From contig WRII01000001.1 of NCBI GenBank assembly GCA_009782825.1, positions 1 to 64,000 of the forward strand: a stretch of 64,000 nt of DNA. Reading direction: 5' to 3'. The notes beneath the pieces were generated by a model, which worked only from the letters and a program-made list of their open reading frames with translations, did no database searches and was not told the DNA's origin. The first letter of the stretch is position 1. Every line of letters starts with the position of its first letter. The DNA comes from Peptococcaceae bacterium (GTDB taxonomy: Bacteria; Bacillota; Desulfitobacteriia; Desulfitobacteriales; Syntrophobotulaceae). This document shows positions 1,623-50,090 of this stretch, piece by piece. The position numbers were made by a program, and so were the translations under genes.

Positions 1623-2303
1623 TTATCTGCTGTTTTTGGCCAGCAGGCGCCGGATATGCAATGTCAGCTCTTTAAAGGCACTACGGGGATCAATCTCATC
1701 CAAAGTTTCAATTAATGCCGTTGTTTCTTGATCGCTGAGGCTGTCTTTTTTCCCTGCCAGGTGTGCGGATCGGCTTTTGACGATGAAGATCAAAATATCT
1801 TCTAAAGAAGCTTTCTCTGCAACCCTATTTTCAACAACTTTGCTCCTGCTGGCAAATTGTATGAAGTCCTTGTTCATCAATGTATAATTGATTTTCCCTT
1901 TTTCATTTGTATATCGGTCAATCAAAGCTTTATACTCTTCACTGTTCACCATATCAACCTTTTCGGTCTCGGTTTCAGCTACATCCTCTTGGACAGCCTC
2001 TTGACCTTCCACCTGATCCGGGGCCTCTTCAAAAACGCTTATCTTGAATTTTCCCCGGGATGTGTAAGGAAGCCCTATTGTCAGCTCTAACGCTTCGTTC
2101 ACAGCTTCATCCGGGAACAGATCTGCGTCATATTTCCCATAAGGGATTCCTTCCCCGGTTCTTCTGTCAATCGTAAAAACAGTTGAAACATCCTGGTCAA
2201 GCCTATAGATCTTGATCCCGGCCCCGCCTGAGTATAATTTTTGCTTGTACGCAATGGCGGGAATGGCCGTTAATTCTACGGCTGTGGTTCTGATAATGTT
2301 CAT
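1623..2303 (-). CDS. hypothetical protein
   Basis: An unrecognised 226-residue soluble protein. The first 90 residues look like a compact beta-rich domain (AYKQKLYSGGAGIKIYRLD, then VFTIDRRTGEGIPYGKYDAD). An acidic, glutamate-rich linker follows around residues 95-120, then a mostly helical C-terminal half ending in RRLLAKNSR. I start at the second ATG: AGGAG lies 12 bases upstream of it, whereas it directly touches the first ATG (2315). There is no signal peptide or membrane segment. The gene stands alone, convergent with the membrane protein gene ending at 1534. No function can be assigned. Confidence 0.7.
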   Translation of the reverse strand: MNIIRTTAVELTAIPAIAYKQKLYSGGAGIKIYRLDQDVSTVFTIDRRTGEGIPYGKYDADLFPDEAVNEALELTIGLPYTSRGKFKISVFEEAPDQVEGQEAVQEDVAETETEKVDMVNSEEYKALIDRYTNEKGKINYTLMNKDFIQFASRSKVVENRVAEKASLEDILIFIVKSRSAHLAGKKDSLSDQETTALIETLDEIDPRSAFKELTLHIRRLLAKNSR

Positions 2304-2546
2304 GGTGCACAACATCTCCTGTTTGGTTTGATTTTGTGAAATGCCTCAAATATGGATGAATGGGGTTTTCAGACATGCCCTAATCAAAACTAAGGCACGC
2401 TCATTGAGTATGCTCTTTAGATTGTAAGGGACACCTGAACATATGTCAAATCTTTCAAGACCCTATCTTTCAAGCCTCTACTGCCCTTTTGCTAAATCAT
2501 TGAAAAATCATCATTGCTCCAAATGATTCGCTTTGCAACAGCCCGC

Positions 2547-3797
2547 TCACACGATATGACCGTCTCCATAAATCATATATTTGCTGGTTGTCAGTTCCGG
2601 CAGCCCCATGGGGCCCCGGGCATGGAGCTTCTGGGTGCTGATGCCGATCTCGGCGCCAAAGCCGAAGCGATTGCCGTCGGTGAAACGGGTTGAGGCGTTC
2701 ACGTAGACTGCGGCGGCGTCCACTTCCTTCAGGAAGCGTTGAGCTGCCGGGTAGCTTTCGGTCAGGATGGTTTCGGAATGTTTGGTGGAATATTGGTAAA
2801 TATGATCAAGGGCTTCGTCGATATCCGTGACAGTTCTCATATTCAGGATCATATCATTGTGTTCGGTCTGCCAGTCTTGATCTGTGGCAGGCCGGGCCGC
2901 CGGAATATGTTGACGGGTCTTGGCGCAGGCACGCATTTCCACACTGCCCGCACTCAGCATGTCAGCCAGGCGGGGCAGGAAGGCGGCGGCGATGGCGTCA
3001 TCGACGAGCAGGGTTTCCAGAGCATTGCAGACGCTGGGGTAGTTGGTTTTGGCGTTGTAGACCACGGCCAGAGCTTTATCCAGGTCGGCATCGCGATGGA
3101 CAAAAGCGTGGCAGATGCCGGCGCCGGTTTCGATGACAGGCACAGTGGCATTGGTAACGACACTTTGGATCAGGCCGGCGCCGCCACGGGGGATGATGAC
3201 GTCTACATAGCCGTTCAAGCGCATGAGCTGTTCGGCATAGACGCGATCTCCGGCAGGCACAAGCTGAACTGAGGCGGAAGGCAGTCCGGCGTCGGAAATG
3301 GCTTTGGCAATGAGACGGACGAGAACCTTGTTGCTTTCGGCGGCCTCGCTGCCGCCGCGGAGCAGGCAAGCGTTGCCGGACTTGAGGCACAAAGCGGCGG
3401 CGTCAACAGTGACATTGGGGCGGGCTTCATAGATAATACCGATAACACCGAGAGGGACACTGATTTTTTCAATGCGCAGGCCGTTGGGCCGGGTCCACAT
3501 CTCTCCCCTGCCTACGGGGTCAGGCAGTTGGATAACATCGCGCACACCGTCACATATGCCGTCGATTTGTTTGGGGGTCAGGGTGAGCCGGGAGAGGAGG
3601 CTCTTTTTCAGGCCTTTTTCTTCGGCCCGTTTCACGTCAACGGCATTGGCAGTGAGAATTTCCTGAGCGTATTCTTTTAGAGTTCCGGCGATGTTGTGCA
3701 GGGCGGCGTTTTTGCCTTCTGTCCCTGCAGACATGAGGGCGCGGGCCGCTTGTTTGGCGTGCTGGCCCAGGGTTATGAGTTCGGGTTTGAATTCCAT
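2547..3797 (-). CDS. proA: glutamate-5-semialdehyde dehydrogenase (gamma-glutamyl phosphate reductase)
   Basis: ProA reduces gamma-glutamyl 5-phosphate with NADPH to glutamate-5-semialdehyde, the second step of proline synthesis in the cytoplasm. The 416-residue length is normal. Visible family features include IYEARPNVTVDAAALCLKSG in the substrate/NADP domain, the catalytic cysteine in NYPSVCNALETLL, and the C-terminal segment RFTDGNRFGFGAEIGISTQK. It is the last gene of the proline set on this strand, but separated from proB by about 2.3 kb of accessory genes. Its first 16 codons are duplicated in diverged form at 5308-5355. The start ATG has the ribosome site AAAGGAG about 10 bases upstream. 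Confidence 0.96.
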   Translation of the reverse strand: MEFKPELITLGQHAKQAARALMSAGTEGKNAALHNIAGTLKEYAQEILTANAVDVKRAEEKGLKKSLLSRLTLTPKQIDGICDGVRDVIQLPDPVGRGEMWTRPNGLRIEKISVPLGVIGIIYEARPNVTVDAAALCLKSGNACLLRGGSEAAESNKVLVRLIAKAISDAGLPSASVQLVPAGDRVYAEQLMRLNGYVDVIIPRGGAGLIQSVVTNATVPVIETGAGICHAFVHRDADLDKALAVVYNAKTNYPSVCNALETLLVDDAIAAAFLPRLADMLSAGSVEMRACAKTRQHIPAARPATDQDWQTEHNDMILNMRTVTDIDEALDHIYQYSTKHSETILTESYPAAQRFLKEVDAAAVYVNASTRFTDGNRFGFGAEIGISTQKLHARGPMGLPELTTSKYMIYGDGHIV

Positions 3798-3881
3798 GGT
3801 GCATGTCTCCTTTGTCAGAATTCTTCATTTGAGTGTACCATTGTTGCAGAGGGATTTCAATGATATTGCGATATTACGATA

Positions 3882-4646
3882 TTACGCCTCGTCAGCCACA
3901 AGTCCGCATGTATCACACTTGTAATCAACAAAAGTCTTTGTGGTCAGCTTCCAGTCTGTGCCGCACACAGGGCAGAGGGCTGGGGTCTTTGTGTACTTTC
4001 TATAATGGTATACATAGTAGTAAAAAGGAATACCGGTGGCGGATTCAAAAGCCCGGCAGATTTCCAGGCCGTTTTTGGAAAGCTGGGAATCCAGGCTATT
4101 CATCTGTCGGTATGTAGAGCGGTCAGACACTCCGCTCATAAAGAGCCGGTTGATGTTTTGGTAATCTTGCTTCCACATGAGCGCGCTGTAATACTCTTCC
4201 TCATTGAGGATGCGGGGGAGGTTATAAAGCGGAACACTGTGTCCGCATGTGCCGCAGACAACAGGGCTTTCTTCATCTGTCCAATCTGAGTACAGCATAT
4301 ACCAGAGGGGTGTTTCCGGGCAGGTGCAGGAGGCGATGACATTTAAGTTTTCGCCAATGGGTGTTATACTGAGGGCAAAAAGGGTTTTGACCTCAGCAAG
4401 GCTCTTAGCCACATAAGCGTTGTTATGGCGGCTGTCCAGGGCGTCATTTTCCGGCAAGGTTACAAAAGCTAAGTAGTTTTCGGAGGTTTTGATGAGCTTG
4501 AAGCTTCGTAAAACTTGGCCGTTCTTATACAGACAGGCTAAATAATCCCAGAGGATATTGATGGCTTCGTGTTCAATGAGGGTGTCATGTTTAGTTTTGC
4601 TTTCGAGAGGGTGAAGACGTGTGAAGGCCATCTGGAAAACGTTCAT
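3882..4646 (-). CDS. DUF2310 family zinc-ribbon protein
   Basis: A 254-residue protein that I recognise as a DUF2310-type protein (Zn-ribbon, possibly nucleic-acid binding). Two cysteine pairs, CTCPETPL and CGTCGHS, form a central metal site near residues 110-137. A second pair at the C-terminus, CPVCGTDWKL and CDTCGLVADEA, makes another zinc ribbon. Between them lies a helical region with aromatic-rich FYYYVYHYRKYTK. The function of the family is not established. It lies between the acetyltransferase gene and proA on the same strand and is not part of proline synthesis. A diverged copy of its last 12 codons survives at 6095-6135, evidence of an earlier second copy. Confidence 0.8.
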   Translation of the reverse strand: MNVFQMAFTRLHPLESKTKHDTLIEHEAINILWDYLACLYKNGQVLRSFKLIKTSENYLAFVTLPENDALDSRHNNAYVAKSLAEVKTLFALSITPIGENLNVIASCTCPETPLWYMLYSDWTDEESPVVCGTCGHSVPLYNLPRILNEEEYYSALMWKQDYQNINRLFMSGVSDRSTYRQMNSLDSQLSKNGLEICRAFESATGIPFYYYVYHYRKYTKTPALCPVCGTDWKLTTKTFVDYKCDTCGLVADEA

Positions 4647-4743
4647 TGTGCCGGGAACTCCTTTACCCTATTTGAGTTTTTGGCAGAACCTGCATGGGAA
4701 TATCTCTAATATGTCCTGAATATGTCCTGGAAAACCGGATGTT

Positions 4744-5280
4744 TTACATGGAAAATTTCGTCTTCGGATATACTTCCAGTCTACGGCTGTATCGCATTCC
4801 AATCAACGGTGTATCAATATTGATTTCTTTTTTTGTACCGTCAAAAAGGAATCCCCTCTTCTCATAAAAACGCCTTGCCCGGCTATTGGCTTCAAGCACC
4901 CAAAGAAACACTTCCTCGTGTCCCATACGTTTGAGTTCTGCAAGAGAGAATTCCATCATTTCACGGCCATACCCCTTACCCCAGAATTCGCCAAGCAGGT
5001 ACATCGCGGCAATCTCGCCTGCATTAGCTTTATCTTCATCACGGCACTTGCCCATAACGAGCCGACCAATCATCTTGCCGCTATGTTCCACATAGTAACA
5101 CGAATATTGGCCGGGTTCGCTTAAAATTCGTTGGGTGTTTTCAGCCATTTCATCAACATTCATGTTATTTAGGTATTCGTCCGAAATGATATCTTTATAT
5201 GCGGCCTGCCAACAGGCGATATGATTTTTAGCGTATTCGAGTGCGTCTTTTGGTGAGGCGCGCCGAATATGTATATCCAC
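4744..5280 (-). CDS. GNAT family N-acetyltransferase
   Basis: A GNAT acetyltransferase transferring an acetyl group from acetyl-CoA to an unknown substrate. IHIRRASPKDALEYAKNHIA is the typical beta1-alpha1 opening, followed by GEIAAMYLLGEFWGKGYGRE, which carries the acetyl-CoA pyrophosphate loop (Q/RxxGxG/A equivalent), and WVLEANSRARRFYEKRGF, the conserved strand 5-helix 4 region. I start at GTG 5280 because GGGAGG precedes it by about 9 bases and the domain starts there. An in-frame ATG at 5355 would fuse 25 extra residues, the first 16 copied from ProA (see 5308-5355). The gene is an insertion between vapC and the DUF2310 gene. Confidence 0.85.
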   Translation of the reverse strand: MDIHIRRASPKDALEYAKNHIACWQAAYKDIISDEYLNNMNVDEMAENTQRILSEPGQYSCYYVEHSGKMIGRLVMGKCRDEDKANAGEIAAMYLLGEFWGKGYGREMMEFSLAELKRMGHEEVFLWVLEANSRARRFYEKRGFLFDGTKKEINIDTPLIGMRYSRRLEVYPKTKFSM

Positions 5281-5307
5281 CGGCCTATCCCTCCCTGCCG
5301 CAGCCCG

Positions 5308-5355
5308 TTGTTTGGCCTGTTGGCCCAAGGTGATAAGCTCGGGCTTGAATTCCAT
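5308..5355 (-). repeat. duplicated 5' end of proA fused ahead of the acetyltransferase
   Basis: The first 16 codons read MEFKPELITLGQQAKQ, matching the real ProA start MEFKPELITLGQHAKQ at 3797-3750 apart from one residue, with several silent differences. Similarity stops after codon 16. The acetyltransferase/DUF2310 pair is therefore bracketed by direct repeats of the proA 5' end, as expected if the cassette arrived by duplication or recombination at the proA start. The divergence indicates that the event is not recent or that the copy came from a relative. Confidence 0.85.
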
Positions 5356-5386
5356 GGGTGTTGTCCTCCCTGTAGGGCTTAGAATT

Positions 5387-5800
5387 TTAAATGGGTAAGG
5401 ATGTAAAGACCCTTAAGTCTTTAACTTTTGCAGCCATCATATCAAAATCATGGTCGTTGTGCAAAAGCAGCAAATGATTTTCGATGGCTGTAAGCGCAAT
5501 AAGAATATCAATTGTGCTGCGCGGCGTTACCCCTTGGCGGCGCAGGTCAAAATACAACCGCGCAGCCTGCTCATATGTTGAGGCTTTTTCCGGTAAATAG
5601 TAAATTGCCTGTGTGGAAAGATAGCTCCACAACAGTTCATACTCATTTTCGTTGCGTGCGCCTTGCAAAACTTCCTGATAGGTGTAAGCTGAAATGCCAA
5701 AAGGGATTTCATGAGTGAGGATTTCCTCAAAAAGCTTAGTTTTATTATCAGTCTGACCTTTGAAAAATCCAATTATGACTGATGTATCTACTAATATCAT
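5387..5800 (-). CDS. vapC: VapC-type PIN-domain ribonuclease toxin
   Basis: A 137-residue PIN-domain protein, predicted toxin of a type II toxin-antitoxin pair that cleaves RNA. The first acidic residue is in MILVDTSVIIGFFKG (Asp5). A conserved Glu sits in YTYQEVLQGA, a central Asp in STIDILIALTAIEN, and a terminal Asp pair in LLLHNDHDFDMMA, together giving the four-acid Mg-binding site. It starts 4 bases after the end of the antitoxin gene, so the two are co-translated. The catalytic residues all appear intact, so it is probably functional. The pair sits in the proB-proA gap and may stabilise the inserted block. Confidence 0.9.
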   Translation of the reverse strand: MILVDTSVIIGFFKGQTDNKTKLFEEILTHEIPFGISAYTYQEVLQGARNENEYELLWSYLSTQAIYYLPEKASTYEQAARLYFDLRRQGVTPRSTIDILIALTAIENHLLLLHNDHDFDMMAAKVKDLRVFTSLPI

Positions 5801-5804
5801 CAGA

Positions 5805-6005
5805 TCAGCGGTCCTTTCGCAATGCTAAATAATCATAATTCTCAGCAAACTCAATTTTACCGCGTAATCCCCTTAAGTCTTTACGTGTGTGCCGTTCAAT
5901 AAATTCTTTTAGGGCCTTGGCAACAACCTCTTTTTTTGTTTTTAGGCCGGATATCTCCATTGCTTTTTGCATCATCAAGTCATCAATCATGATATTGGTT
6001 CGCAA
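5805..6005 (-). CDS. vapB: VapB-type antitoxin
   Basis: A 66-residue antitoxin: RTNIMIDDLMMQKAMEISG is a ribbon-helix-helix DNA-binding segment and KTKKEVVAKALKEFIERHTR its dimerisation helix; the tail DLRGLRGKIEFAENYDY would wrap the PIN toxin. I choose the TTG at 6005 because AAGGAGG lies just upstream at ideal spacing. Longer in-frame reading to 6074 would cross the promoter. It should bind and neutralise the downstream VapC and repress its own promoter at 6027-6055. Confidence 0.88.
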   Translation of the reverse strand: MRTNIMIDDLMMQKAMEISGLKTKKEVVAKALKEFIERHTRKDLRGLRGKIEFAENYDYLALRKDR

Positions 6006-6026
6006 TGCGCACACCTCCTTATACAC

Positions 6027-6055
6027 ATTATGATACACATGGGTGTTGGTGTCAA
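6027..6055 (-). promoter_or_regulatory. vapBC promoter
   Basis: On the minus strand there is a perfect -35 TTGACA (6055-6050), exactly 17 bases, then CATAAT (6032-6027) as the -10. Two direct copies of ATGTGTAT overlap the -10 and could be antitoxin-binding half sites. The vapB TTG start lies about 20 bases downstream. Confidence 0.75.
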
Positions 6056-6094
6056 CCTTAACACCCCTTAACACCGCAATGTTTTTTTAAAACT

Positions 6095-6150
6095 CTATGT
6101 TTCATCAGCGACAAGCCTACATGTATCACACTTATTCGGATATACTTCCA
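6095..6150 (-). pseudogene. scar of a second acetyltransferase/DUF2310 cassette
   Basis: Directly after proB (minus strand) comes TGGAAGTATATCCGAA, a 16-base exact match to codons near the end of the acetyltransferase gene (4763-4778). It joins a roughly 40-base segment encoding KCDTCRLVADE and a stop, which matches the DUF2310 C-terminus KCDTCGLVADEA. The order (acetyltransferase end, then DUF2310 end) is the same as in the intact cassette, so this looks like a copy collapsed by internal deletion. Confidence 0.75.
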
Positions 6151-6152
6151 TT

Positions 6153-7256
6153 TTAAAAAACAGTCATATTATCGCAATGAACAACTTCCCCGCTGGTGAG
6201 GTCGGAGAACCTTTGCAGAACCTCGTTGGTATGTAAGCCGATGACGTCGTTGATTTCCTGGCTGCTGAGTTCGGCCAGGCCCCGGGCCACTTCTTCTCCT
6301 TCTGGGCCGACAATGCGGACGGGTTCTTTGCGTTCCCAGGATCCTTCAATTCCTATGATCCCTGAAGCCAGGAGGCTGGCGCCTCTTTGTTTGAGGGCGC
6401 GTTTGGCTCCGGCGTCTATGGCAATGTGGCCGTAGGTCAAGGCGCCGTAAGTCAGCCAGCCTTTGCGTCCGGTGAGTTTGCGGGGTGGGCTGACAAAATA
6501 GGTGCCCCGGGGCCACTGCTCCTGAAGGATGCTGGTCAGGTTTTCAATGTGTTCGAAGGAGGTGACAAAGGAGGGGACGCCCAGGTTGGCTGCTATTTCA
6601 GCGGCTTTGATTTTGGTGATCATGCCTCCGGTGCCAATGGCGGAGCCTTGACCGTCCGCCAGTTTTTTAACGCCGGCGATGTCTTCGACCCGGTCGAGAT
6701 GTTGGGCGTCTTTGTGTTTTTTGGGGTTGGCGGTGTAGAGACCGTCTACGTCTGTGAGCATGATCAGAAGATCGGCTTGGAGCATACCGGCTACGAGGGC
6801 TGAAAGGCGGTCGTTGTCGCCGAAGCAGAGTTCGTCGATGACGACAGTGTCGTTTTCGTTGATGATGGGGATGACGCCCATTTTGAGAAGTTTGTTGATG
6901 GTGTTTTGGGCGTTGCGATAGTGGGCGGCTTCGCCAATGTCCATGGGAGAAAGCAGGATTTGGGCGCCTGTTTGCTCGTATTTGGAAAAGAAGTACGAGT
7001 ATTTTTCGATGAGGATGCCCTGCCCGACGGCGGCCAGGGCTTGACGCCCGATGAGGTCGTGAGGGCGCTGGGTCATTTTGAGGGCGCCCATGCCGGCAGC
7101 CACGGCGCCTGAGGAGACGAGGATGCATTCGGCGCCGCCTTCCCGGAAGGCGCTGAGGGTATAGGCGAGGCGGTCGAGAATGACGCCGCTGAGGCCTCCT
7201 GTTGGGGAGGCGAGGCTGTTGCTGCCGATTTTGAGGACGATGCGTTTGAGGGGCAT
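6153..7256 (-). CDS. proB: glutamate 5-kinase
   Basis: ProB phosphorylates glutamate with ATP to gamma-glutamyl phosphate, the committed and feedback-inhibited step of proline synthesis. The 367-residue protein has the amino-acid-kinase domain (RIVLKIGSNSLASP at the start, then LVSSGAVAAGM, IINENDTVV, and FGDNDRLSALVA for nucleotide and substrate binding). A C-terminal PUA domain from about residue 280 (AIDAGAKRALKQRGASLLAS) is typical of proline-regulated enzymes. It lies downstream of proC on the same strand, with a small membrane-protein gene between. In most relatives proA follows directly; here vapBC and two other genes intervene. Confidence 0.96.
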   Translation of the reverse strand: MPLKRIVLKIGSNSLASPTGGLSGVILDRLAYTLSAFREGGAECILVSSGAVAAGMGALKMTQRPHDLIGRQALAAVGQGILIEKYSYFFSKYEQTGAQILLSPMDIGEAAHYRNAQNTINKLLKMGVIPIINENDTVVIDELCFGDNDRLSALVAGMLQADLLIMLTDVDGLYTANPKKHKDAQHLDRVEDIAGVKKLADGQGSAIGTGGMITKIKAAEIAANLGVPSFVTSFEHIENLTSILQEQWPRGTYFVSPPRKLTGRKGWLTYGALTYGHIAIDAGAKRALKQRGASLLASGIIGIEGSWERKEPVRIVGPEGEEVARGLAELSSQEINDVIGLHTNEVLQRFSDLTSGEVVHCDNMTVF

Positions 7257-7301
7257 GGGGTGGTCTCCTTGAGTGTGAGATTTATGGTGTATACGAAATA
7301 C

Positions 7302-7481
7302 TCAAAAGCCGTATGTGAGGATATAATAGATAATGTAAATCCAACCCAGGAAACCATGAAAAAGCATCCAGGGAATTGAATGCCATGATGTGAATGAGAT
7401 GATCATAGCGATAACGCTGCCGATCCCAAAGGTTCCAATGCCACAGCCGCAACCCTTGCTTCGATTGTTTTCATGAGTCAT
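7302..7481 (-). CDS. small membrane protein between proC and proB
   Basis: A 59-residue reading frame. It begins MTHENNRSKGCGCGIGTFGI, a short polar Cys/Gly segment, and continues as one or two hydrophobic, aromatic helices (SVIAMIISF, then MLFHGFLGWIYIIYYILTYG). A purine-rich GGGAGGG lies about 10 bases before the ATG. It fills an otherwise unexplained gap in the proline gene set. The composition is strongly protein-like (Trp/Tyr/Phe membrane helix). I do not recognise a family, so no function is proposed. Confidence 0.6.
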   Translation of the reverse strand: MTHENNRSKGCGCGIGTFGIGSVIAMIISFTSWHSIPWMLFHGFLGWIYIIYYILTYGF

Positions 7482-7571
7482 AGGTGTTCATCCCTCCCCT
7501 TTCTCTATCATACACTGCTCTGTAATCTACTGTGTCTGTTGAGACTATTCTACCATAAATTATGTGTTTTC

Positions 7572-8411
7572 TTATGGTTTTCCCAGTTCTTTCTCCATCT
7601 CATCTGCCCGATCCCGGCAAGATGTCATAGCGCGCTGAATTAATTCGGGGAATCCACTGTGCTTCATAGATTCAATGGCGGCATGGGTGGTGCCGTTGGG
7701 GGATGTGACTTTGGCCCGCAGATCGGCGGGGGTTTCCTTTGTTTCCTCAAGCATGCGGCCGGCTCCGATCAGGGTCTGAGCGGCTAAAAAGGAGGCTTCC
7801 TCCTGGGTCAGGCCGAGGCTTTGTCCGGCTTGGGTCATGGTTTCCGCCAGATAGTAGAAATAGGCGGGGCCGCTGCCGCTGACGGCAGTGAGGGCATTCA
7901 TTTTTGTGTCTTCCAGCCAGAGGGTTTTGCCCAGGGCCTGGAATATTTCTTCGGCCAGGGAGGTGTGGAGGTCACTGGTGCAGCGGCCGCGAACCAGTCC
8001 GGTCATGGATTGGCCTGCCAGAGCTGAGGTGTTGGGAAGAGCCCGGATGATGGCTCTTTCCGGCAGATGGGTTTCATAATAGTGGAGGCTTAATCCGGCG
8101 GCGACGGTGATGAGAAGTTGATCAGAGGGGTCTTCCCCGGGAGGGAGACAGGCGAGCTGCCGGATCAGGCTTGGCATATTGTTGGGTTTTACGGCCAGAA
8201 TGATGACAGAGGAGTGTTGGACAAGGTCAGGCAAAGAGACGGCAGAGGCATTGTGTTCGGAGGCCAGGCGGGCGGCCTTTGCCGTGTCAATATCGGTGAG
8301 GCAGAGAGTCCAAGGGTCGTGGTTTTGGCTTTTTTGGGTTAGACCGCGTACTAAGGATGATGTCAGGTTGCCGGCGCCGACGATTCCCAGGATTCTCTTA
8401 TGCTTGGTCAT
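7572..8411 (-). CDS. proC: pyrroline-5-carboxylate reductase
   Basis: ProC uses NAD(P)H to reduce pyrroline-5-carboxylate to proline, the final step of the pathway. The 279-residue protein shows the N-terminal dinucleotide fold (ILGIVGAGNLTSSLVRGL), the ILAVKPNNM strand, and the family signature near the C-terminus (ALTAVSGSGPAYFYYLAETM through LRAKVTSPNGTTHAAIESM). Its ATG overlaps the stop codon of a short upstream reading frame (ATGA), which suggests proC was once translationally coupled to a gene whose 5' part is now missing. Confidence 0.96.
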   Translation of the reverse strand: MTKHKRILGIVGAGNLTSSLVRGLTQKSQNHDPWTLCLTDIDTAKAARLASEHNASAVSLPDLVQHSSVIILAVKPNNMPSLIRQLACLPPGEDPSDQLLITVAAGLSLHYYETHLPERAIIRALPNTSALAGQSMTGLVRGRCTSDLHTSLAEEIFQALGKTLWLEDTKMNALTAVSGSGPAYFYYLAETMTQAGQSLGLTQEEASFLAAQTLIGAGRMLEETKETPADLRAKVTSPNGTTHAAIESMKHSGFPELIQRAMTSCRDRADEMEKELGKP

Positions 8412-8542
8412 TGAGGTATTGCCTCCTCGTGTTTATTTTTTACAGATCTATAGCCGCCAACTCGCAAATGGAGTTCATCTTCCTCAGCCGGATCAAGAAA
8501 AAGCTCCGATTCCTGTTCCTGCCAACCTTTTGGGAAGCGTAT
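8408..8542 (-). pseudogene. C-terminal gene remnant overlapping the proC start
   Basis: A 44-codon open segment without a start codon, preceded by an in-frame TGA at 8543-8545. It encodes an acidic, protein-like stretch (GWQEQESELFLDPAEEDELH, then LRVGGYRSVKNKHEE) whose TGA overlaps the proC ATG. Such ATGA overlap is typical of real coupled genes, so this is probably the tail of a gene lost upstream. Family not recognised; composition differs from the adjacent frames. Confidence 0.4.
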
Positions 8543-8641
8543 TCAATTACAACAATAATACCATATCTGTTCTTTAAGCAAAAGTTAGCCATCTCAGCGC
8601 AGGCGATGCCCGCCGAGGTCATGGTGGCGCACACGCTGTAG

Positions 8642-8794
8642 TCATGCCTTGGGAATGGGACGGCAAGGAGCCGTCGGAGTTGTCAGGGGTTTGCAGGCCG
8701 GGGCGTTGTAGCCGACGGCGCAGCAGATACCGGAGGTGACGACCCGGAGGGCGAATTTCTGGTTCAGTATCCATTCGCCGGTGAAGGAGATCAT
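8642..8794 (-). other. short open reading frame after the beta-propeller gene, probable remnant
   Basis: A 50-codon frame starting 9 bases after the propeller stop (MISFTGEWILNQKFALRVV at its start), cysteine- and proline-rich. Immediately downstream another frame (to about 8440) continues with Cys-rich sequence (CATMTSAGIACAEMANFC). The two together look like one gene broken by a frameshift near 8640. I recognise no family. The interval 8412-8800 otherwise holds nothing I can assign. Confidence 0.3.
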
Positions 8795-8802
8795 GGGGAG
8801 GT

Positions 8803-9681
8803 TCAGCGGCCTTTTTCCGCTGCAAGAAGTTCTTCCATTTCTTTAAAGAGCAGAATTTTGTGCCACTCACCGTTTTCGCGGAAAACTGCGCCGCTGATGC
8901 CGGAAAGCAGCAGTACCCCGTCGCCGACTGACAGGTCTCCCGCGCATTCCTCCACCCAGCCGGGAACGTCCGCCTCCTTGATGATGTTGTTCTCGATTAC
9001 CCACAGGCCGTAATCGTTGGTCGCCCACACCTTGTCCTCATACCACACCAAGTCTTGCAAGCGCAGGGTTGAGGGGTCTTTATCCGGTTCCTCGTTTTCG
9101 ACCCTTTCCCAGCGGTCGCCGCGGCCACGAAAGATTTTTCCTCTCCCTCCTGAAAGGTACACCTCGCCGTCGCCACCGCAACAGACGGCTGTGAAGTCGA
9201 TGTTTGTAGGGATCGGAATCTGGTGAGCTTTCTTGCCGTCGAAGTGCCACACGTCGCCCTTGCCTCCCGTGAGGTAGATGTCCTGCTCATTAAAGGCGTC
9301 AAAGTCGTTGAACCCGCAGTTGTCAGCTATCGGAAAGTGTTCGCTGAAGCTCTGCCACTCGCCTTTGCCCAGCCGTTTGCCAAAGCCACGGTTCCCGGTA
9401 CAGGTGTACAGCCAGCCGTCGATCATTTTCATGTGGCCGATAGCGCCACGGACGAAGCCGCCTTCTAGGGGTTTGTCATCATAGGCTGGGCCGCTACCAG
9501 ATACATTGCACTTGTGAGCCATTGAGGGGAATGTGGCAACTCTTTCCGCACAGACAATATGCCCCGCTGGTTTCTGAGACGCGCCTATCACCGTCCCCTG
9601 CCAACCACTCTTCCTTTCACCACACCATTGTTCCCCGAGGGTTTCATCCCTAAAATAGATTAGTTGGGCCTTCGGTCTCAG
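8803..9681 (-). CDS. beta-propeller-like protein, possible immunity protein
   Basis: The product is built of repeating beta-blade units of the form GxxYxxG/GxGxIxxxxxxxW (for example IYLTGGKGDVWHFDGKKAHQ, VYLSGGRGKIFRGRGDRWER, DLVWYEDKVWATNDYGLWVI, and AVFRENGEWHKI). Such small propellers often accompany polymorphic toxins as immunity proteins. Similarity to a blade begins before the first standard start (GTG 9591). The frame stays open to a CTG at 9679-9681 that overlaps the TGA of the preceding gene, where an ATG would be normal. Either CTG is used, translation starts at 9591, or the start has decayed. No signal peptide. Function inferred from context only. Confidence 0.55.
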   Translation of the reverse strand: MRPKAQLIYFRDETLGEQWCGERKSGWQGTVIGASQKPAGHIVCAERVATFPSMAHKCNVSGSGPAYDDKPLEGGFVRGAIGHMKMIDGWLYTCTGNRGFGKRLGKGEWQSFSEHFPIADNCGFNDFDAFNEQDIYLTGGKGDVWHFDGKKAHQIPIPTNIDFTAVCCGGDGEVYLSGGRGKIFRGRGDRWERVENEEPDKDPSTLRLQDLVWYEDKVWATNDYGLWVIENNIIKEADVPGWVEECAGDLSVGDGVLLLSGISGAVFRENGEWHKILLFKEMEELLAAEKGR

Positions 9682-20461: not shown

Positions 20462-20573
20462 CTACCAAGAGAATTAGCATAATTATTTGCACATAATTAC
20501 ACGTATGATTAAGGCGGTTGTAATTAAAAAATAATGTTACAATTGCCTTACTAAAACATAATTGGAAGAAGTA

Positions 20574-21260
20574 ATGTTAGTGAAAAAAAGTATTCGTATT
20601 TTATTTATTAGTATCATTTTATTTTTAATAGGTAGTAATAATGCAAATGCATCAGAAGATATTTTGTTTAGATTTATGCATAATGACCATGACGCTCTTA
20701 TTATTGGGACAGTCACCTCTATCGAAGATAACATTATGACAATCAAATCTATTGATAGGATTGTAAGCGCTTCCTCTATTAATAATAAAGAACAATTATG
20801 GTTTGATGAAGCATCATTTCCGCTTACTATTTATGCTCCTGAAAGATTTAATGTAGGTGATCATGTTATTGTATCATTACACAAAAAGGAGAAGGGGCTT
20901 TTTATTAGAAATGGATTGTATAAGGTATCTGGCACTGACTTCAGAACGCTTAAAGTAGAGCACCCCATATGTCCGGCAACAGGGACTATGCTTACTGATT
21001 TTGTGAATAGTGGCGGATTATATACACAATATTCAATAGGAGGAGGCGAAATCGTTACAAGATATTATCTTGGAGAAGAAACTGTTATTTATAATCATGC
21101 CGAGGCAATGGCATTAATTGATTCACAAAACGAGGAACCACAAAGCGAGAACCTGCAAAATGAAAACTCTAACCATATTATTAATATTATTGGAGGCAGT
21201 GCCTGTCTAGTAAGCCTTGTCATAGTGACTATCTTCATAATTAAAAAAAAGAACGTCTAA
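20574..21260 (+). CDS. exported, membrane-anchored protein (tandem paralogue 1)
   Basis: A protein of about 228 residues: N-terminal signal peptide (KKSIRILFISIILFLIGSNN, cleavage likely after NANA), an extracellular beta-rich domain (HDALIIGTVTSIEDNIMTIK, then FNVGDHVIVSLHKKEKGLFI), an acidic linker, and a C-terminal transmembrane helix (IGGSACLVSLVIVTIFI) with a KKKNV tail. It should sit outside the cell, anchored by its C-terminus. It follows the cell-wall hydrolase and is repeated in part at 21346. No family recognised; protection against or control of the hydrolase is conjecture from position. Confidence 0.75.
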   Translation: MLVKKSIRILFISIILFLIGSNNANASEDILFRFMHNDHDALIIGTVTSIEDNIMTIKSIDRIVSASSINNKEQLWFDEASFPLTIYAPERFNVGDHVIVSLHKKEKGLFIRNGLYKVSGTDFRTLKVEHPICPATGTMLTDFVNSGGLYTQYSIGGGEIVTRYYLGEETVIYNHAEAMALIDSQNEEPQSENLQNENSNHIINIIGGSACLVSLVIVTIFIIKKKNV

Positions 21261-21345
21261 CAAGCCTCGTTAGTATGATTAAGGTGGTTGTAATAACAAG
21301 AAATAATGTTACAATTGTCCTGCTGGGAAATAACTGAAGGAAGTA

Positions 21346-21603
21346 ATGTTTATGGGAAAAATTATTCGCATTTTATTTATTAGTATCATATTGATTTTAA
21401 TATGTAGTAATAATATAAATGCAGCAGATACTTTATTTAGATTTATGCATAATAACCATGACGCTCTTATTATTGGAACAGTCATCTCTATTGAAAATAA
21501 TATTATGACAATCAAGTCTGTAGATCGCATTGTAAGTAGTGCATCTATGGATAAAAGAGAGCAGTTGTGGTTTGATGAAGCATCATTCCCACTCGATGTA
21601 TAA
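21346..21603 (+). pseudogene. truncated tandem paralogue of the exported protein
   Basis: The first 85 residues closely match the gene at 20574, with signal peptide IIRILFISIILILICSNNIN and shared block HDALIIGTV; both copies also share upstream sequence including GTTACAATTG. After WFDEASFPL the match stops and a TAA follows 2 codons later, 3 bases before the end of the IS3 element. The remainder of the gene is not found on the far side of the IS, so the insertion was accompanied by a deletion, or the tail was lost separately. The product would lack the outer domain and membrane anchor. Confidence 0.8.
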
Positions 21604-22010: not shown

Positions 22011-22865
22011 TCAAGCTTCAAGTTGGTTGGCCGTGTTGCAGTATACCTCAAATGGTATCTGGTAACCGAGGGACTGATGGAGCCTCTTGGTGTTGTATTT
22101 GATAAAATATTCGTTAAGACCCCTGCGAAGTGCTTTTGGTGTATCGTAGTCCTTAATGTAGATGTCTTCGTATTTGACTGTTCTCCATAGCCGCTCCGTA
22201 AAGATATTATCCATACAACGGCCCCGGCCGTCCATGCTGATTCTCACCCCCTTGTTGAGCAAAGTGTTTATATAATTGTTCCCTGTGTACTGGCTGCCTT
22301 GGTCGCTATTCACGATGTGAGGCGTGGCTGTAGCTAATGCTTTCTCCAAAGCATATACCACAAAATCATCCTCAAGGGTGTCCGATAACTCCCATGACAC
22401 CACATACCTTGAATACCAGTCCATGTATGCCACAAGGTACATGAATCCTCTCTGCATACGGATATAGGTTATGTCCGTGCCCCAGATATGGTTGGGGTAG
22501 GAGGCTGTCACATTCCTCAACAAGTATGGATATATCTTGTGCTCGGGGTGTGGGGCGGAGGTTTTGGGCTTCGGGTAAATCGCCTCAATACAGAGTATTC
22601 GCATATATCTGGCTACCGTAGGGCGGCTTATCTTATAACCTTGTCTCAACAACTCCTCTCTGATCCTTCTTGCACCATATACGGGGTTTTCCGTATAGAT
22701 TTCATCCATGGCGTTCAGAATTGCCAGTTTTTTGGCCGATACAGGCCGTTTCTTGTAGTACAGACTGCTCCGGTTCAGCGAGAGCATATCGCATTGGGAC
22801 AATATGCTGTATTCGCTGTCCAGAGGATCTATCATCACCATCCTTTGTTCCCGACTATACGTCAA
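22011..22865 (-). CDS. IS3-family transposase OrfB (DDE integrase domain)
   Basis: A 284-residue catalytic part of the transposase. The HTH_21-like region NPVYGARRIREELLRQGYKI precedes the DDE core: first Asp in HIWGTDITYIRMQRGF, second Asp in HIVNSDQGSQYTG, and Glu in DNIFTERLWRTVKYE, ending with the typical YFIKYNTKRLHQSLGYQIP. It overlaps orfA by 11 bases in the -1 frame at a run of nine A residues, the usual site for programmed frameshifting to give OrfAB. All catalytic residues are present, so the element may still be active. Confidence 0.93.
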   Translation of the reverse strand: MTYSREQRMVMIDPLDSEYSILSQCDMLSLNRSSLYYKKRPVSAKKLAILNAMDEIYTENPVYGARRIREELLRQGYKISRPTVARYMRILCIEAIYPKPKTSAPHPEHKIYPYLLRNVTASYPNHIWGTDITYIRMQRGFMYLVAYMDWYSRYVVSWELSDTLEDDFVVYALEKALATATPHIVNSDQGSQYTGNNYINTLLNKGVRISMDGRGRCMDNIFTERLWRTVKYEDIYIKDYDTPKALRRGLNEYFIKYNTKRLHQSLGYQIPFEVYCNTANQLEA

Positions 22866-28530: not shown

Positions 28531-28630
28531 AACTAACGCGGGCTACGCCCGCAAGTGGTCAGTGATCAGTGGTCAGTGGTCAGTATTGGATTTTCTTGCT
28601 TTTTGTTGACGCTTCGCGTCTGTAAGTTAC
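28531..28630 (+). repeat. dispersed hairpin-heptamer repeat, copy A
   Basis: Contains the hairpin GCGGGCTACGCCCGC (6-bp stem), then four GTGGTCA-type heptamers, then TATTGGATTTTCTTG, and a second small hairpin GACGCTTCGCGTC followed by AGTTACT. Copies B (42543-42622, inverted) and C (49987-50090) share the same order. It could terminate transcription after the M28 peptidase gene. Confidence 0.85.
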
Positions 28631-28645
28631 TATAGGAGAGGAGGG

Positions 28646-42542: not shown

Positions 42543-42622
42543 CGCCCGCAAGTGGTCAGTGGTTAGTAAACAGTGGTCAGAATAAGAAAATCCAATACTG
42601 ACCACTTGCGGGCGTAGCCCGC
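42543..42622 (-). repeat. dispersed hairpin-heptamer repeat, copy B
   Basis: Reading on the minus strand: TAACGCGGGCTACGCCCGC, AAGTGGTCAGTATTGGATTT, then heptamer remnants. CGCCCGCAAGTGGTCAGT (42543-42560) is repeated as its exact reverse complement at 42597-42614, so this copy forms an 18-bp stem of its own. It lies between the convergent atpC and MFS genes. Confidence 0.85.
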
Positions 42623-42630
42623 GTTAGAAG

Positions 42631-49497: not shown

Positions 49498-49986
49498 GTG
49501 GAAAATCGACTTGAGAGTTTACGCAATGAAATTGATAGGCTGATTTACAAAAACCAGCCCAAAGAGAGCCGTTATTTCGTTTCCCATTTGTATGGGGTTT
49601 CACAATTTTGCGTTTTGCTCGCGGTCAGACGCAGTTTGAATGCCGAGCTGGCCGCGACCTGTGGGATGTTGCATGATATATACCAAATCACTGCCGGAGA
49701 AAGGGAAAAACACGCGAAAAGAGGAGCAAAACAAGCTGGAATAATGCTGGAAAGAATGAAGATGTATACGGATCGGGAAATATCAATCATAACCACGGCA
49801 ATAGCAAGGCATAGCAAAAAGCACGCTGTCCATGAACCCTACGATGAAGTCTTGAAGGACGCGGATGTTATGGATCACTGCTTATATAATCCTCATTTCC
49901 CGGTAAGTGAAAAAGAAACGGCCCGATACAATAATTTGCTTAGAGAATTGAACTGCAGTGCTGTCGGGTTGATCGCTGCACTCTAA
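49498..49986 (+). CDS. HD-domain phosphohydrolase
   Basis: A 162-residue HD-superfamily protein: first His in FVSHLYGVSQFCVLLAVRRS, the HD pair in ATCGMLHDIYQITAGEREKH, then TAIARHSKKHAVHEPYDEVL and LKDADVMDHCLYNP, giving the metal ligands. GTG start 49498 has GGAGG 7 bases upstream. It lies before the CHAD-CYTH-Ppx-Ppk group, separated by repeat copy C. It may act on a nucleotide or polyphosphate-type substrate, but nothing fixes this. Confidence 0.82.
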   Translation: MENRLESLRNEIDRLIYKNQPKESRYFVSHLYGVSQFCVLLAVRRSLNAELAATCGMLHDIYQITAGEREKHAKRGAKQAGIMLERMKMYTDREISIITTAIARHSKKHAVHEPYDEVLKDADVMDHCLYNPHFPVSEKETARYNNLLRELNCSAVGLIAAL

Positions 49987-50090
49987 CGCGGGTTACACCC
50001 GCAAGTGGTCAGTGGTCAGTGATCAGTGGTTAGTGGTCAGGGATTTTCTTGTTTTTATTGACACTTCGCGCCCATGAGTTACTAAAATCT
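49987..50090 (+). repeat. dispersed hairpin-heptamer repeat, copy C
   Basis: TAACGCGGGTTACACCCGC hairpin, five GTGGTCA-type heptamers (one GTGATCA, one GTGGTTA), GGGATTTTCTTG, then GACACTTCGCGCCCATGAGT, the same order as copy A but with one more heptamer. Lies between the HD and CHAD genes. Confidence 0.85.

Follow-up and report, generated by a model that had tools for sequence, protein, structure and literature searches.

Tandem duplication of a gene followed by loss of one copy is a known process. In Vibrio cholerae, arrays of immunity genes at T6SS loci are built by successive additive insertion, with older genes and gene ends persisting downstream, and homology-facilitated illegitimate recombination has been proposed for the orphan genes and gene ends found there (PMC5361080). 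That form of recombination has been demonstrated in experiments with Acinetobacter, Pseudomonas stutzeri, Streptococcus pneumoniae, and E. coli (cited in PMC5361080; PMC3240628): of its two junctions, one is expected to be homologous and the other non-homologous, and additive cases are expected to duplicate part of the anchor.

We analyzed a 64,000-nucleotide stretch of DNA from a Peptococcaceae bacterium (the window), in which the list of open reading frames (ORFs) and profile matches gave the minus-strand gene order proC, proB, vapB, vapC, GNAT, DUF2310, proA. As a preliminary description of the sequence had claimed, proB and proA are separated by vapBC, a toxin-antitoxin pair, and by two accessory genes, GNAT and DUF2310. 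The proA gene gave the single proA match in its own genome and is the only full copy there. The features of the locus are:

7572-8411, minus strand: proC
6153-7256, minus strand: proB, glutamate 5-kinase (TIGR01027, 403.4 bits)
6095-6155, minus strand: scar, GNAT tail and DUF2310 tail joined in frame (repeat alignment, shuffles, codon reading)
6027-6055, minus strand: promoter-like site TTGACA-17-CATAAT upstream of vapB (11 of 12 matches; a consensus match only)
5805 to about 6009, minus strand: vapB, antitoxin (PF09957); the listed ORF reaches 6074
5387-5800, minus strand: vapC, PIN-domain toxin (NF047959, 126.1 bits; PF01850)
5303-5357, minus strand: truncated proA 5' fragment of 16 codons, upstream of and in frame with GNAT
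4744-5280, minus strand: GNAT acetyltransferase (PF00583, 63.3 bits), frame open to 5355
4763-4783, minus strand: GNAT tail, parent of the first half of the scar (repeat alignment)
3882-4646, minus strand: DUF2310 Zn-ribbon protein gene, intact (PF10071, 168.7 bits)
3882-3920, minus strand: DUF2310 tail, parent of the second half of the scar (repeat alignment)
3750-3797, minus strand: proA codons 1-16, direct-repeat copy (repeat alignment)
2547-3797, minus strand: proA, glutamate-5-semialdehyde dehydrogenase, intact (NF001221, 595.6 bits)

As in VapBC type II toxin-antitoxin systems, a PIN-domain toxin (NF047959 above cut-off; PF01850) adjoins a VapB antitoxin (PF09957). The start of vapB, placed by inspection of an AAGGAGG site, is probably the TTG at about 6009. 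Gene order confirmed the earlier statement that vapBC lies between the remnants described below, where this predicted toxin-antitoxin would be a separate module. The ORF list and profile search revealed no integrase or transposase in the proB-proA interval, no RNA families were found in 2000-9000, and a terminator scan returned nothing at the scar. An exact 14-base repeat, CCCTTAAGTCTTTA, occurs at 5410-5423 and 5870-5883, close to where vapC and vapB end, and may be a chance match.

Three short repeats connect the ends of the accessory genes and the start of proA to second copies within the locus. Codons 1-16 of proA (3750-3797) recur at 5308-5355 with 41 of 48 nucleotides and 15 of 16 amino acids identical (seven base differences, one amino-acid change), and the extended repeat (3745-3799 versus 5303-5357) matches at 84%. 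The end of DUF2310 (3889-3920) recurs at 6102-6133 (84%) and the end of GNAT (4763-4783) at 6135-6155 (90%). Significance was assessed with dinucleotide shuffles, 60 for each repeat, searched over both strands of the full 64 kb: the proA start scored 65 versus a best shuffle of 33, the DUF2310 part of the scar 39 versus 29, and the GNAT part 32 versus 26. When the search was confined to the cassette, 0 of 2000 shuffles attained either scar score. Just ten repeat pairs reach E≤0.01 in the window, and the proA-start repeat is one of them. The repeats, which the preliminary description had placed at these positions, are therefore real and beyond chance. The leaders preceding the two proA starts showed no significant similarity (p=0.12).

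The scar lies directly after the proB stop codon (TTTTTTAAAATGGAAG), which the repeat match overlaps by 3 bases. It reads ATG GAA GTA TAT CCG AAT AAG TGT GAT ACA TGT AGG CTT GTC GCT GAT GAA ACA TAG (MEVYPNKCDTCRLVADET), keeps the frame of both parents, and stops where DUF2310 ends: the last codons of GNAT, with zero differences in 16 bases, are joined to the last 13 codons of DUF2310. The scar thus has the composition and cassette order first proposed for it, and it is in frame. Read from proB, the order is GNAT tail, DUF2310 tail, (vapBC), proA start, and then the intact GNAT, DUF2310, and proA. This shared order, in which three separate remnants match the intact block, is the best evidence that a GNAT-DUF2310-proA segment once existed as two tandem copies, one of them now reduced to remnants, and it supports that reading of the sequence. 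The cassette occurs once in the window's own genome; the proA-start pattern occurs twice there and once in each of two sister species.

The acetyltransferase had been described as starting with proA codons, and its frame is indeed open through the 16-codon match to a proA-type ATG at 5355. Codon 26 of this frame is a GTG (5280) behind GGCAGGGAGGGATAGGCCG, with a Shine-Dalgarno sequence, GGGAGG, preceding it downstream of the proA piece. Relatives of GNAT align only from about residue 20-37, most of them from 20-28, and their own starts, where placeable, fall near the onset of the alignment. The native GNAT start is probably GTG 5280 with its own Shine-Dalgarno. Because GNAT has these signals and its relatives align from there, the proA piece is most likely a fragment upstream of the native gene, in frame with it and not necessarily part of the product.

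Across the proA-start and DUF2310-tail repeats, 12 of 15 differences fall at third codon positions (p=3e-4 against a null of one third). Taken separately, the proA pair has six such differences out of seven (p=0.007) and the scar six out of eight (p=0.02). At codons 4, 6, 7, and 8, the window's proA and the sister species share a third base from which the GNAT-side proA start has changed synonymously, with no replacement. The two starts differ at 6/16 third positions, at least as many as separate the window's proA from the sister species (3/16 and 4/16); F3 and Q12 are common to both starts and absent from both sister species. Overall, the surviving repeats differ by about 15-20% at the DNA level.

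Because these differences cluster at third codon positions, the copies appear to have diverged while coding, and most of the divergence would predate truncation, since such a pattern of change is not expected in a 16-codon stub or a 55-bp scar. Both copies were probably still functional genes when most of it arose; they would then be either diverged alleles joined by recombination or long-lived full duplicates. The codon patterning is suggestive, comprising only 15 differing sites, and treating the proA fragment as non-coding depends on the GNAT start proposed above. The preliminary description favored a tandem duplication with one copy collapsed: the two copies and their collinear remnants stand, whereas a recent event in situ does not fit the codon-patterned differences. 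Decay soon after duplication would have left divergence of a non-functional type, which was not what we found; a long-kept duplicate is unaffected by this result. Given gene ends only, a codon-position test could help distinguish recent duplications from copies whose divergence took place while they were functional.

Comparison with relatives placed the interval in context. In 24 relatives that carry proB and proA on the same contig, the two genes lie next to each other without comparable cargo; the gaps, computed from listed coordinates, are 33-250 bp, except for one of 862 bp (G032) that holds only one short ORF. Three other genomes (G006, G015, and G036) have the two genes on different contigs. 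In both sister species proA lies behind trp genes (G001 C5:37938-39194; G002 C5:46726-47982), and DUF2310 was not found in either. In G002, genes other than proA come after proC-proB, and proA is about 25 kb distant. All three species of the genus have a broken proBA operon, the break in the window being unlike the other two. No relocated proA remnant was found in the window genome's own trp locus. On the simplest account, the ancestral proB-proA neighborhood would have been kept in the window and opened by cargo. A degenerate pattern scanned against 41 genomes found no second proA start in any other genome, a result that informs on the genus only, because outside it the pattern rarely finds the true proA start. 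No relative shows two proA genes. In G001, a proB-like kinase (C36:22582-23346) with 40% identity, matching only residues 4-254, is present instead of a family-type proB, possibly reflecting replacement of proB by a distant homologue.

Among the 61 genomes of the relatives set, only the window's own contained DUF2310, which occurred elsewhere in one further genome of the class and three further genomes of the phylum sample (33-36% identity). Beside DUF2310 in the four other phylum genomes and in two plasmids, there was no link to GNAT or proA. Neither a second GNAT-DUF2310 pair nor a donor was found in 60 relatives, the class, the phylum sample of 398 genomes, the genome-contig collection, plasmids, or phages, and viral contigs searched with GNAT contained no second pair. 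A literature search found no mention of DUF2310. VapC relatives are present at other sites in a few family members. GC content is 45-48% in GNAT and DUF2310 and about 40% in vapBC, compared with 57-58% in proA, proB, and proC; the values for GNAT, DUF2310, and vapBC are consistent with acquired genes.

The explanation we prefer, with a probability of about 0.45, is that two diverged GNAT-DUF2310-proA copies, the second from outside, recombined into the patchwork now seen between proB and proA. From the repeats, their order, and their codon-patterned divergence, we infer this outside origin as well as the following order of events and recombination route. A resident GNAT-DUF2310-proA copy would have adjoined proB when a second copy arrived, most likely from a related strain or species. 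The proA end of the incoming DNA would have paired with the resident proA by homology, while its other end was attached illegitimately after codon 16 of the resident gene, as in homology-facilitated illegitimate recombination. This one step could yield a 16-codon stub of the resident proA before the incoming GNAT leader, an intact downstream proA, and a second cassette; a later deletion would have shrunk the redundant resident GNAT-DUF2310 to the 55-60 bp in-frame scar. A non-homologous junction beside a duplicated anchor is visible at the locus: proA codons 1-16 are duplicated, and the sequence switches abruptly at about 5306 into the GNAT leader. Weighing against the patchwork are the failure to find a donor in the collections searched, the small number of differing sites, the unchanged 16 bases in the GNAT part of the scar, and the dissimilar leaders of the two proA starts.

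As in the V. cholerae T6SS arrays, the proposed route combines a homology anchor at one end with an illegitimate join at the other, and old gene ends are orphaned beside a new copy. Unlike those arrays, this locus has no recognized effector-immunity genes, its anchor would be the housekeeping gene proA, and it represents only one event, without a strain series containing intermediates. Whereas homology-facilitated illegitimate recombination has been observed in experiments, here it is deduced from one genome only. If the patchwork reading is right, the interval would be a small, readable fossil of accessory genes entering a conserved operon, recording that two diverged copies met at one locus. 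We consider this ordinary genome remodelling as far as the sequence indicates, with no new element and no new function. A broader version, in which the site has been repeatedly overwritten, with cassettes exchanged via the proA homologous anchor, each round leaving datable gene-end scars without any integrase, is unlikely.

The main rival to the patchwork is tandem duplication of GNAT-DUF2310-proA in situ, followed by long coexistence as working genes and then truncation and collapse, with vapBC inserted between. We regard it as a tentative possibility. Collinearity and codon-patterned divergence are equally expected from a long-kept full-length pair, the presence of F3 and Q12 in both proA starts and not in the sister species points to a close common source, and the window contains another diverged tandem pair in which one copy is truncated (20503-21593). 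As in other cases of duplication and loss, collinear remnants of one copy lie beside an intact one; here, however, the divergence is already large and codon-patterned, which would place it ahead of truncation, and an accessory block was copied together with part of a housekeeping gene. Such a history requires two full proA genes to have been kept until ~15% diverged, an arrangement seen in no relative, and a smaller duplication with just 16 proA codons would not yield synonymous-biased change there. Diverged alleles of one locus could also look like this if they had been joined end to end by an assembler, creating a chimera of two strains of one population within a metagenome bin. The genome is in 119 contigs and 94.96% complete, and its nearest relatives are metagenome bins. 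Nevertheless, a strain chimera is very unlikely because the two decisive junctions have no long word in common, which an assembler would need; moreover, the locus sits on a 177 kb contig with all of its reading frames intact.

The remaining two alternatives give the short pieces a role. A selected fusion, in which GNAT took over the translation start of proA and the scar is expressed as a peptide of 18 residues, would account for two frames that are open and in register and for 16 codons conserved at the protein level; it is improbable given that a GTG and Shine-Dalgarno belonging to GNAT itself follow the fragment, at the point where GNAT relatives, which lack the extension, begin. The preliminary description had further suggested that the proA start is an insertion hotspot, or an attachment site for a mobile cassette, and both the cargo at the proA start and the broken proBA operons of all three genus species are in keeping with this. 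Nonetheless, the 24 relatives with adjacent proB and proA, the lack of a second proA start in the other genomes scanned (informative within the genus), the interval free of integrases and transposases, and the sister-species proA genes beside trp genes, with no DUF2310 found there, weigh against it, leaving a hotspot, for which nothing outside this one genome gives support, the least probable of these explanations.

Other repeats were noted in the window and the genome. A dispersed repeat of ~100 bp with AGTGGTC heptads occurs in the window at 28533-28632, 42543-42628, and 49983-50084, as well as in L117 (3341-3454 and 6476-6581) and L065 (10567-10667). It flanks a flavodiiron-type gene on both sides elsewhere in the genome, lies directly upstream of proA in sister species G002, and looks like a genus-wide small repeat or MITE. 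A separate 324-bp tandem repeat (82%) occupies 20503-20824 and 21273-21593: the leader and first part of an ORF at 20562-21260 are repeated immediately after it in a truncated copy, which breaks off before an IS3-type transposase ORF (22011-22865).
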